Assembly (NCBI RefSeq): GCF_900102015.1
Contig: NZ_FNAT01000014.1
Span: 1-52,633, forward strand
From: Limimaricola pyoseonensis
GTDB lineage: Bacteria > Pseudomonadota > Alphaproteobacteria > Rhodobacterales > Rhodobacteraceae
Reading direction: 5' to 3'
DNA length: 52,633 nucleotides
Part shown: positions 25,645 to 29,644 of the stretch, piece by piece
Layout: each line of letters opens with the position of its first letter
Numbering within the stretch: the stretch's first letter is position 1
Made by a program: the position numbers and the translations under genes
The notes under the pieces: generated by a model
The model's input: the letters and a program-made list of their open reading frames with translations, nothing else
What the model was told of the DNA's origin: nothing
Database searches by the model: none

Positions 25645-26961
25645 TTACTTGTGGCCGCGCTGGAGCTTCTTCTCCAGGTACAGCGAATAGCGGGACATGC
25701 TGAAGCAGCAGATGAAGAACAGGAGCCCGATGAAGACGAAGAGCTCCCAGTAGATGCCGTTCCACTCGGTGGTGGCGCGGATCGCGTTCGACAGGCCGAT
25801 CGGGTCGAAGAGACCGATGAACACCACCAGCGTCGTGTCCTTGAACAGGCCGATGAAGGTGTTGACGATGCCCGGGATCGAGATCTTGAGCGCCTGCGGC
25901 AGGATGATCAGCCGCATCGACTGCCAGTAGGACAGGCCGAGGCTGTCGGCGCCCTCGTACTGGCCCTTGGGAAGCGCCGCGAGACCGCCGCGCACCACCT
26001 CGGCGATGTAGGCGGCCGCGAACAGCGTCACCATGATGATCACGCGCAGCATCAGGTCGAAATTGGTGCCCGGCGGCAGGAAGTAGTTCAGCAGGAGCGA
26101 GGCGGTGAACAGCCAGACGATCAGCGGCACGCCGCGGATGATCTCGATGAAGCCGACCGACACCTTGTTGATGATGAACAGGTCCGACTGCCGGCCCAGC
26201 GCCAGCAGGATCCCCAGCGGCAGCGACAGGATGATCGCCGCGATGCCGATGATGAAGGACAGCATGAAGCCGCCGAAATCCTGCGAGGGCACGTATTCGA
26301 TGCCGATCCCCACGACCTGCTCCAGCTCGCGCGCCAGCGGCCCGGCGGTGTAGAACCAGTAGACGATCGGCAGCGCCGCCGAGACGATGGCGGCCACCAG
26401 CGTGCCGGCCATCGGCGCCAGCGCCCGCCACGCCGCCCAGCCCAGCACGAAGCCGAGGGCCACCGCGACCGGGAACCAGGCCGAGCCGCCCCAGAGCAGC
26501 CAGAACATCACGAAGGGCGAGACGGCGGTGAACCACAGCGCGCCGCGCGGCACCTGCGCGAACAGCACCGGCGCGATCGCCGCGAGGAAGATGACCAGCG
26601 CCAGCACCGGCCGCCAGTAGAGCTCGGACGGGTAGAAGCCGAACATCAGCTGCTGCCAGCGGTCCACCAGCACCGCCCAGCAGGCGGCGGAGGCGCCCTC
26701 GCCCAGCGTGGCGTCGCGGATCTCGCGGCACTCGCTCAGCGAGCCGGCGTTCCAGATGCCGCTCACCACCCAAGGCAGCGTGTGCGCCAGCGCCCAGTAG
26801 ATCACGTAGAGCGAGACCAGCGTCAGCACGATGTTGAACCAGCCCGAGAACAGGTTCTCGCGCAGCCACAGGATCGCGCCGCGATTGCTGACCGGAGGCT
26901 CGGCCTGCGGCAGCATGGTCTCGCGGACATAGGAGACGGTCTGGGAATGCGTGTCCGACAT
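25645..26961 (-). CDS. aapM: General L-amino-acid ABC transporter permease AapM/BztC
   Basis: A 438-residue permease, close in length to Rhodobacter BztC. An N-terminal block with a first helix (about 43-65) and a Cys-containing periplasmic loop is followed by several helices. The conserved His/Glu/Gln-type permease domain lies after about residue 225. The coupling loop includes [31 protein letters not shown]. It starts one base after the aapQ stop. Confidence 0.95.
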
Positions 26962-26962
26962 C

Positions 26963-28489
26963 TCAGCGCTCCTTCAGCTTGACGCTGGAATTGTAGACGT
27001 TCATCGCGCCCGAGATGACGAGGCTGGTCACCAGGTAGAACAGCCCCAGCAGCAGCATCCCTTCCAGCTCCTTGCCGGTCTGGTTGATGGTGATGCCGCC
27101 CAGGGTCGAGCGCACGTCCATGTAGCCCACCGCGATCGCCAGTGACGAGTTCTTGGTGAGGTTGAGATATTGCGAGATCATCGGCGGGATGATCACCCGC
27201 AGCGCCTGCGGCAGGATCACGAGGCGCATGGTGCGCGAGGGCTTGATGCCCAGCGCGAAGGCCGCCTCGGTCTGGCCCTTCGACACCGACAGGATGCCGC
27301 CGCGCACGTTCTCGGCGATGAAGGCGCCGGTGTAGAGCGACAGCGCCAGCCACAGCGCGATCAGCGAGTTCCTGAGCTGCAGCCCGCCCTCGAAGTTGAA
27401 GCCGCCGAGGATCGGCCGCTCGAACTCGACAGGGTTGCCGCGCGTGATGGTGTCGCTCAGCGCCACGGCGCCGGCCGGCACGCTGGCCGCGATGGTCGAG
27501 GCCGGCAGCGACAGGATGTTGCAGCGCCCGGCCTCGGCCGCGGCGATCGCCTCGGCGCCGTCGGCGACCGGGACGAGGTTGAAGCGCAGGTCGTTGGCCC
27601 GCATCAGCCGGCGCAGGTTCAGCGACTCGGTCGAGAAGGGCACGGTGCAGGCGTTGATCGCCTGCTGCGAGCCCGCGTAATCGGCCAGCGTCATGCCCTC
27701 GCTCGCGCCCGTGGCGAGCACCGGCTGGACCTGGCGGCCCGAGGTCAGCGACAGCGCGAGGAAGGCGACCGTGACCGGCACCAGGAGCAGGCCCAGCGTG
27801 CCCCAGCCGATCGGCAGGATGCGCCCGGTCTGTTCCTGCGTCCTGTGGGCGTAGCGGCGCCAGAAGAAGATCGCGACCAGCGACAGCAGCAGCACGGCGA
27901 GCAGGATGCCCGCGCCCGCGCCCCAGAACGGCGCCGGGATGAAGACGCCGCGATTGGTGATGGCGACCGTGTCGCCGAGGATCATCGCGGCGTCGCCGCC
28001 CTCGCGGAAGTCGCGCGGCTGCGGCGTGGCCTCGGTCATCAGCGCGAAGATCAGCAGGATCCACAGCAGCAGCGGGATGTTGCGGAAGCCCTCGACATAG
28101 ACCGCCATCAGCTTGGCGATGAGCCAGTTCTTCGACAGCCGCAGCACGCCCGCCAGCACGCCGATCACGGTGGCCAGCGCGCAGCCCAGAACGGCGACGA
28201 GCAGGGTGTTGAGGATGCCGACCAGCGCGGCGCGCGCATGGCTCGAGGTGCTGTCGTATTCGACCAGCCGCTGGTTGATGTCGTAGCCCGCGCGCTGCCC
28301 GAGGAACCCGAAGTCGAAGTCCTTGCCCAGAGCCTGCAGGTTGGCGACGGTGTTCGACACCAGCCAGCTCAACCCCAGCATCAGCGCGATGAAGGCGATC
28401 ACCTGGATCGTGAGGGAGCGGTAGCGGGTGTCGTAGATCAGCTGGCTAGGGTGAAACCCCGCCTTCGGAGGTTCCGAGGTCGTCGTCAT
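26963..28489 (-). CDS. aapQ: General L-amino-acid ABC transporter permease AapQ/BztB with an embedded binding-protein-like insert
   Basis: This 508-residue permease is about 100 residues longer than the roughly 400-430 expected. The first part (helices near 28-48, 86-115, 123-150, 190-210 and 229-248) and the C-terminal permease domain (from about 360, with GQTEAAFALGIKPSRTMRLV) are normal. Between them, residues about 262-355 form a hydrophilic insert. Its segment 290-334 aligns without gaps to residues 156-200 of AapJ from this operon, for example LNLRRLMRANDLRFNLVP against LNLADFFRNNNMSYEPVP, and AGRCN against AGACD. The alignment position is lobe 2 of the binding protein. By topology the insert should be periplasmic, facing AapJ. 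The frame is uninterrupted, so it is a real extra domain rather than a frameshift. Confidence 0.92.
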   Translation of the reverse strand: MTTTSEPPKAGFHPSQLIYDTRYRSLTIQVIAFIALMLGLSWLVSNTVANLQALGKDFDFGFLGQRAGYDINQRLVEYDSTSSHARAALVGILNTLLVAVLGCALATVIGVLAGVLRLSKNWLIAKLMAVYVEGFRNIPLLLWILLIFALMTEATPQPRDFREGGDAAMILGDTVAITNRGVFIPAPFWGAGAGILLAVLLLSLVAIFFWRRYAHRTQEQTGRILPIGWGTLGLLLVPVTVAFLALSLTSGRQVQPVLATGASEGMTLADYAGSQQAINACTVPFSTESLNLRRLMRANDLRFNLVPVADGAEAIAAAEAGRCNILSLPASTIAASVPAGAVALSDTITRGNPVEFERPILGGFNFEGGLQLRNSLIALWLALSLYTGAFIAENVRGGILSVSKGQTEAAFALGIKPSRTMRLVILPQALRVIIPPMISQYLNLTKNSSLAIAVGYMDVRSTLGGITINQTGKELEGMLLLGLFYLVTSLVISGAMNVYNSSVKLKER

Positions 28490-28624: not shown

Positions 28625-29644
28625 TTAGCGGAACGGCGGCGCGTAGATCAGGCCACCATTGGTCCACTGCGCGTTCAGGCCGCGCGCCAGACCGATCGGG
28701 GTGTTCTCGCCGATGTTCTTCTCGAAGATCTCGCCGTAGTTGCCGCCGGCGGCGATGGCCTTCTTGGCCCAGTCGCTCTCGAGGCCGATCATCGCGCCGA
28801 GCTCGCCCTCGGTGCCGAGAAGGCGGTTCACCTCGGGGTTGGAGCCCGGGGCGGCGGCCAGCTCGTTCACGTTGGCCGAGGTCACGCCGTACTCTTCCGC
28901 AGCGATCAGCGCGTTGAGCGTCCAGCGGACGATGTCGGCCCACTCGTTGTCGCCATGGCGCACCAGCGGCCCGAGCGGCTCCTTGGAGATGATCTCCGGC
29001 AGGATCACGTGGTCGGCCGGGTTCTCGAAGGTGGCGCGGGTGGCGGCCAGGCCCGAGGCGTCGGTGGTGTAGGCGTCGCAGGCACCGGCGAGGTACTGCT
29101 GCTGGCCCTCGGCGTTGGTCTCGATCGGCACCGGCTCGTAGCTCATGTTGTTGTTGCGGAAGAAGTCCGCGAGGTTGAGCTCGGTGGTGGTGCCGGTCTG
29201 GATGCAGACGGTGGCGCCGTCCAGATCCTTGGCCGAGGAGACGCCCAGCGCGGTCGGGACGATGAAGCCTTGGCCGTCATAGTAGTTCACGCCGACGAAA
29301 TCGAACTTGAGGTCGGTGTCGCGCGAGAAGGTCCAGGTGGTGTTGCGGGCCAGCATGTCGATTTCGCCCGAGGCCAGCGCGGTGAAGCGGGTCTGGCCGG
29401 TGGTGGGCACGAAGTTCACGGCGGTCGGGTCGTCCAGCACCGCGGCGGCCACGGCGCGGCAGACGCTGACGTCGAAGCCCTCCCAGACGCCGTTGGCGTC
29501 GGGGGCGCCGAAGCCGGCGAGGCCCGTGACCACGCCGCAGTTCAGCTCGCCGCGCTCCTTGACCTCGTCGAGCGTGGCGGCCTGCGCCGCTCCGGCGACG
29601 AGACCGGTGACGGTCAGGGCGCCGAAGAGTACGGATTTCTTCAT
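28625..29644 (-). CDS. aapJ: General L-amino-acid ABC transporter substrate-binding protein
   Basis: This 339-residue secreted binding protein (BztA in Rhodobacter) has a signal peptide ending Ala-Gln-Ala-Ala near residue 22. Lobe 1 contains GELNCGVVTGLAGF and the ligand-contact block TALASGEIDMLARNTTWT. Lobe 2 spans about 139-228, with VCIQTGTTTELNLADFF and AGACDAYTTDASGLAA. Return to lobe 1 follows around RHGDNEWADIVRWTLNAL. The ATG follows GGAAGAGG. It is the first gene of the operon. Confidence 0.96.
   Translation of the reverse strand: MKKSVLFGALTVTGLVAGAAQAATLDEVKERGELNCGVVTGLAGFGAPDANGVWEGFDVSVCRAVAAAVLDDPTAVNFVPTTGQTRFTALASGEIDMLARNTTWTFSRDTDLKFDFVGVNYYDGQGFIVPTALGVSSAKDLDGATVCIQTGTTTELNLADFFRNNNMSYEPVPIETNAEGQQQYLAGACDAYTTDASGLAATRATFENPADHVILPEIISKEPLGPLVRHGDNEWADIVRWTLNALIAAEEYGVTSANVNELAAAPGSNPEVNRLLGTEGELGAMIGLESDWAKKAIAAGGNYGEIFEKNIGENTPIGLARGLNAQWTNGGLIYAPPFR

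Follow-up and report, generated by a model that had tools for sequence, protein, structure and literature searches.

An AapJ-type lobe-2 domain embedded in the AapQ permease of Limimaricola pyoseonensis and its relatives

The amino-acid importer permease AapQ of Limimaricola pyoseonensis carries within its chain a domain that is almost certainly descended from lobe 2 of an AapJ-type binding protein, while a complete free AapJ is encoded in the same operon. Taken jointly, this descent and a role as a tethered, ligand-free mimic of lobe 2 at the channel mouth, serving docking or capping, make up the reading that we tentatively favour.

The window, i.e., the whole stretch of DNA analysed (52,633 nucleotides of contig NZ_FNAT01000014.1), comes from a 3.9 Mb genome, and the closest relatives of its AapQ, among the best 80 of 567, are those of Limimaricola. 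Four adjacent genes on the minus strand follow the order aapJ-aapQ-aapM-aapP from 29644 to 24831 (Table 1), the last of which we take to be aapP from its ATPase motifs and its place among the genes. AapQ passes the Pfam model PF00528 (59.9 bits, cut-off 26.4) and the NCBIfam model TIGR01726, the HEQRo 3-TM domain (53 bits, cut-off 42.2). For the AapJ of the window the top NCBIfam model is TIGR01096, at 229 bits, which is below its cut-off of 256.

Table 1. Positions in the window of the importer genes, the embedded segment and the residues compared with AapJ.
Feature	Positions	Strand	Basis
aapQ, amino-acid ABC importer permease, 508 aa, insert-bearing	26963..28489	minus	ORF
Extra aapQ segment, residues about 248-351, embedded AapJ-type lobe 2	27437..27748	minus	AapQ and AapJ comparison, model
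aapJ, binding protein, 339 aa, upstream of aapQ	28625..29644	minus	ORF; PF00497 53.3 bits, above cut-off
AapJ lobe 2, residues about 126-226, counterpart of the insert	28967..29269	minus	hhalign; boundaries set by us
aapM, partner permease, 438 aa, without such an insert	25645..26961	minus	ORF; PF00528 87.8 bits
aapP, ATPase subunit, 267 aa	24831..25634	minus	ORF and position
Codon of insert Cys281, equivalent to AapJ Cys147	27647..27649	minus	alignment
Codon of insert Cys323, equivalent to AapJ Cys189	27521..27523	minus	alignment
Codon of Pro329, at the AapJ Asp195 position	27503..27505	minus	alignment

A sequence-only reading of this DNA had put AapQ, at 508 residues, some 100 residues above expectation, and this surplus is borne out by a median of 405 among 63 AapQ that lack the added segment. 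The 63 belong to a set of 86, consisting of the best 80 of 567 candidates from a contig scan for AapQ relatives, the window sequence and five later finds; the set was chosen by similarity and its proportions are not those of a survey. Within it the segment is present in 17 of the best 80 of 567 and in 23 of the 86, carriers being 508-596 residues long (n=23) and non-carriers 395-479 (n=63). Between fixed flanks the loop measures 127-215 residues in carriers against 21-26 in non-carriers, with no intermediates among the 86. In the short forms the end of a hydrophobic stretch leads directly into the GFNF-region motif, at which the carriers rejoin; the surplus of the window AapQ accordingly spans about residues 248-351, or roughly 104 residues, with borders accurate to a few residues. 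The surplus does lie in a single loop, as first proposed, but not between residues 262 and 355, its borders being slightly more N-terminal; the nucleotide span first given, 27425-27706, falls mostly inside 27437-27748. The window AapQ shares 64-76% identity with seven short AapQ of the alignment. In two carriers, L033 and L090, the lobe is itself extended by roughly 45-85 further residues, charged and rich in Ala.

The insert resembles AapJ in its second lobe. As a single pair, the insert and the AapJ of the same operon share 23 identities over 75 residues in BLASTP (E 2e-7), and when the residues of the window insert were shuffled 400 times the score reached at most 49 against the real 77. 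The inserts were then compared by hhalign with 26 AapJ rows (alignment A4), which were picked by us among those found and two of which are identical over lobe 2, giving a probability of 94, an E of about 1e-7 and a score of 51.3. Chance resemblance is excluded by the controls on that score: 200 column shuffles of the profile had a mean of 12.5 and a maximum of 20.3, the reversed profile scored 13.0 (probability 0.17) and an AapM profile 10.6 (probability 0.06). Against AapJ lobe 2 alone the insert scored 49.8 (probability 95.8, E 7.8e-9), and against lobe 1 alone 21.3 (probability 4.2, E 0.0098), which is just over the shuffle maximum. It is thus lobe 2, and not both lobes of a whole binding protein, that the insert matches, and alone it cannot make a normal two-lobed binding site. 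The gapless match of AapQ 290-334 to AapJ 156-200 that first drew attention to the loop is real and widens to 281-334 against 147-200, at an offset of 134 and with both cysteines included. Of the two flanking matches put forward with it, PAGAVALSDTI against PADHVILPEII appears in the BLASTP alignment beyond a gap, and D-Y-A-G against D-L-D-G is unaligned in the multiple alignment.

Wider searches led to the same family. By phmmer, the window segment had one match among all PDB chains, 4z9n (E 0.068), an AapJ-type protein of Brucella ovis; insert profiles found 4z9n at 1.7e-5 (17 inserts) and 5.1e-6 (21 inserts), the next PDB matches being at 0.013, a designed barrel, and 0.13. An insert profile run against 4538 open reading frames of at least 80 residues from the window and the loci gave 138 matches at E up to 10, comprising 29 AapQ (23 distinct, six being the same genes met again in another collection) and 109 AapJ, and nothing else. 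With a profile built without the five Limimaricola-group inserts, the AapJ of the window was still recovered (E 0.0017, nominal database of 100000). Single inserts reached p below 0.01 against this AapJ in 11 of 23 cases, 12 missing that level, and the similarity to AapJ spans about 55-80 of the 121-122 profile positions, the ends resting on the structure model. Alignment A1 omits L033, alignment A5 omits L033 and L090, and in alignment A3 three entries, L083, L085 and L086, are near-certain second copies of L006, L011 and L010 by length and identity.

The sequence-only reading had tied its case to a significant profile match with binding-protein families; this was obtained with AapJ profiles and with the solved AapJ-type protein, while PF00497 (SBP_bac_3) matched none of 17 inserts at E up to 1. 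Pfam found no family in the window insert and, across the 17, eight families with one member each (top E 0.0087) and no binding protein among them, and NCBIfam gave one match for the window segment, to an unrelated family (E 0.089). That an unrelated alpha/beta loop came to look like AapJ by chance or convergence is scarcely credible: the Pfam results, the 12 weak single comparisons and the likeness of type II lobes to other alpha/beta folds speak for it, but the profile controls, the confinement of non-AapQ matches to AapJ, the double cysteine register and a common top match by sequence and fold all speak against it.

The cysteine register is strict, every one of the 23 inserts and of the 26 AapJ rows having both cysteines at a constant offset of 134, and Cys281 and Cys323 of the insert probably form a disulfide. 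The pair is missing from two other family-3 binding proteins of the source genome that align to AapJ, two further family-3 proteins of that genome giving no alignment, and it is present in twelve AapJ-type sequences from eleven loci in other families of the class. Residues of the ligand site have fared differently. Lobe 2 gives part of the ligand site in family-3 binding proteins, and AapJ Asp195, presumably a ligand contact as in related proteins, is found in all 26 AapJ rows and in one of 23 inserts, where Pro takes its place in 16. AapJ Glu155 is kept in none of the 23, and T152 in five, with Thr or Ser at that place in 16. With Asp195 kept in a single insert, ordinary ligand capture is unlikely.

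Structure prediction agreed with the sequence comparisons. The AlphaFold2 model of AapQ (31 rows) has a whole mean of 73.2 and a pTM of 0.58, and a model of the insert only (21 sequences) has a mean pLDDT of 74.5 and a pTM of 0.58, i.e., both are of middling overall confidence. Within the full-length model the blocks of the insert have a pLDDT of 83-86, one block having 73, and strands and helices alternate from residue 254 to 327, followed by a strand at 341-349. In Foldseek the whole AapQ model matched two chains of the amino-acid importer 4yms ahead of 4z9n (3e-4) and numerous binding proteins. The insert-only model placed three 4z9n chains on top of the PDB matches (E 9.5e-6 to 8.2e-5, TMq 0.57-0.62), the best with E 9.5e-6, TMq 0.62 and 3.0 A over 105 columns, so that the best PDB match is the same by sequence and by fold. 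MltF at rank 4 and ATP phosphoribosyltransferases at rank 11 of this list mean that the fold alone would not name the family, whereas the sequence does. An alpha/beta lobe, which had been expected of any predicted structure, is seen in both models, and the insert is predicted to fold as an alternating beta-alpha lobe of the AapJ type. The original suggestion of a binding-protein lobe inside the channel subunit is therefore upheld as homology to an AapJ-type lobe 2 by BLASTP, hhalign and the fold model together. The insert stands between predicted helices at 227-249 and 374-401, the former of which has an Arg-containing turn (about 211-223) at its opposite end, and in the model it lies just before the helix leading into the EAA coupling loop; these predicted helices and the positive-inside rule suggest that it is periplasmic.

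Mapped across AapQ homologues, as had also been proposed, the insert is patchy within the family. The insert profile matched in 349 of 394 genomes of the family, by an AapQ in at least 11 of them, and 383 of the 394 had no AapQ insert match among the matches listed, whether or not aapQ is present. Nineteen further loci taken from the family matches hold AapJ, or in one case a close paralogue (58% identity), and the other family matches listed appear AapJ-like by their listed open frames and ranges. Across the class 191 of 385 genomes matched, at least five of the 385 being of the window's own family, and a match to the whole insert occurred in the window genome only; AapJ lay at the match in the fourteen other matched genomes of the class that were inspected. 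In four genomes of other families (G673, G725, G591 and G706) the AapJ matches lay in very long open frames that might have been fusions; each proved to be an AapJ match ending a long stop-to-stop frame on its C-terminal side, and no fusion was evident. Two contigs, L027 and L028, are labelled as a Deltaproteobacteria MAG and have Rhodobacteraceae-like aap genes; they are probably misassigned bins.

Other insertions were seen in the relatives. In seven of 11 picked AapM (L026, L030, L033, L034, L038, L039 and L062) an extra 182-366 residues follow the site equivalent to residue 218 of the window AapM; judged by eye, these inserts are rich in Ala and Glu and look like coiled coils. The AapM of L031 and L042 have a 51-residue insert after position 114 and an 18-residue one after 218. 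The AapQ of L044 and L078 have Gly/Ala/Ser-rich low-complexity inserts in another loop, before the first extra transmembrane helix.

The suggestion that the lobe was probably copied from aapJ does not survive in the form of a local copy. The window insert is 67-71% identical to the inserts of four Limimaricola loci compared with 31% for the AapJ of its own operon (75 residues aligned), and the inserts form one family apart from every AapJ used. All inserts were split from all AapJ used in tree 1 (23 inserts; 100/99), where the bootstrap had not settled, and again in tree 2 (19 inserts and 12 of the 26 AapJ rows, with L033, L090, L011 and L012 left out; 100/100), where the inserts fell outside the Rhodobacteraceae AapJ clade (99/98) and the two outgroup proteins were placed apart from each other. 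Both trees rule out a recent copy of the local aapJ, with the caution that they use 96 and 87 columns, that AapJ is very conserved and that the insert branches are long. On the permease backbone with the insert removed, carriers are scattered and 11 changes are needed in both trees, well supported branches forcing at least 10 in the careful tree (43 of the 86 rows, chosen by us, with 20 of 23 carriers; L002, L004 and L033 left out) and five in the quick tree (n=86), in which the carriers L008 and L009 fall among short Amylibacter forms. Carriers as a single permease clade were rejected (AU p 9.5e-7), which rules out vertical descent within such a clade. The best fit is a single origin from an AapJ-type lobe that was later lost, or exchanged between genomes, repeatedly; the lobe may instead have been captured repeatedly and independently, the alignment being short and the branches long.

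Once present, the insert has been kept under constraint, which supports the joint reading: it is in frame in 23 proteins, with both cysteines in all of them, and its dN/dS was 0.18-0.78 in 11 pairs, i.e., below 1 in all 11, although one pair, L002-L004, includes codons upstream of the likely start. The embedded lobe, tethered and ligand-free at the channel mouth, would steer AapJ onto AapQ-AapM via weak contacts, as a docking or capping module with a role comparable to that of the MalF P2 domain. MalF P2 is a large domain on the periplasmic side that interrupts one of the two permease subunits; its fold differs from that of the AapQ insert, and we know of no descent of P2 from a binding protein. 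A docking or cap role is weakly favoured because, according to titles cited in PMC3150292, the P2 domain of the maltose importer contacts MalE and because, according to PMC11065425, the docked domain of OpuA is contacted by one TMD residue per subunit, each at a different lobe, and unliganded binding domains of GlnPQ compete for docking. Residue 144 of the Rhizobium AapQ is described in PMC2978685 as affecting transport rate, in passages unrelated to any insert. Counting against docking, 63 of the 86 AapQ (the best 80 of 567 and six more) have no insert, and a fast-changing insert beside a near-constant AapJ (mean column identity 38% in 21 rows vs 82% in 26 rows) speaks against an extensive specific contact surface between the two.

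A serious, if less probable, rival to the docking reading is that the lobe is a dispensable ornament, which landed in a tolerant loop and stays folded only because misfolding harms the permease. Its patchy spread over carriers that are no single clade, with the many forced changes on both trees, fits this account, as do a dN/dS of the insert above that of the rest of AapQ in 11 of 11 pairs and the unrelated inserts in two other AapQ and in the AapM of relatives. The lack of intermediate loop lengths among the 86 AapQ, the invariant cysteines and the dN/dS below 1 throughout stand against it.

It is unlikely that the insert acts as a surrogate lobe, packing on lobe 1 of docked AapJ in competition with AapJ lobe 2, prying AapJ open and speeding release. 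Homology to lobe 2 and not lobe 1, the replacement of Asp195 with the predicted fold retained, and a sequence position just before the helix to the coupling loop would suit such a part, but lobe-2 residues fixed in AapJ, namely T152 and E155, have largely or wholly been lost from the inserts though AapJ as a whole is strongly conserved. Similarly improbable is a lobe-swap step in which the embedded lobe trades places with lobe 2 of AapJ in its docked state, opening AapJ and passing the amino acid to the channel; we know of no other importer with such a release step. Direct amino-acid binding, at a low-affinity second site or as a gate sensor, had been among the first suggestions, next to a docking decoy, and is very improbable: the contribution of lobe 2 to the ligand site in this family and the frequent Thr or Ser at the T152 place speak for it, but the insert has no lobe 1, and the loss of Asp195 and Glu155 makes a ligand-binding site unlikely.

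The domain shares with AapJ/BztA-type family-3 proteins such as 4z9n the lobe-2 sequence, the cysteine register and the predicted fold, and differs in lacking lobe 1, in having lost Asp195 and in being embedded in a membrane protein. Its host sits between aapJ and aapM like the AapQ/BztB-type permeases of 400-odd residues, whose loop counts 21-26 residues against at least 127 in carriers. In GlnPQ and OpuA the binding domains sit at the chain end. Binding-protein material on the permease polypeptide is common to these importers and AapQ, but theirs are complete, ligand-binding domains, while the AapQ insert is half a protein, internal to the chain, with a free AapJ still encoded. The covalent link between binding and membrane domains in GlnPQ and OpuA is described in PMC8025302 and PMC11065425.

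Whole binding domains fused to importers are thus already known. Titles and abstract openings, with the subscription literature mostly outside their reach, yielded no description of half a binding domain inside a permease beside a free complete copy, and to our knowledge this arrangement is undescribed. Should the lobe dock or open AapJ, comparing naturally paired carrier and non-carrier permeases would test directly what the outer loops contribute in type I importers.
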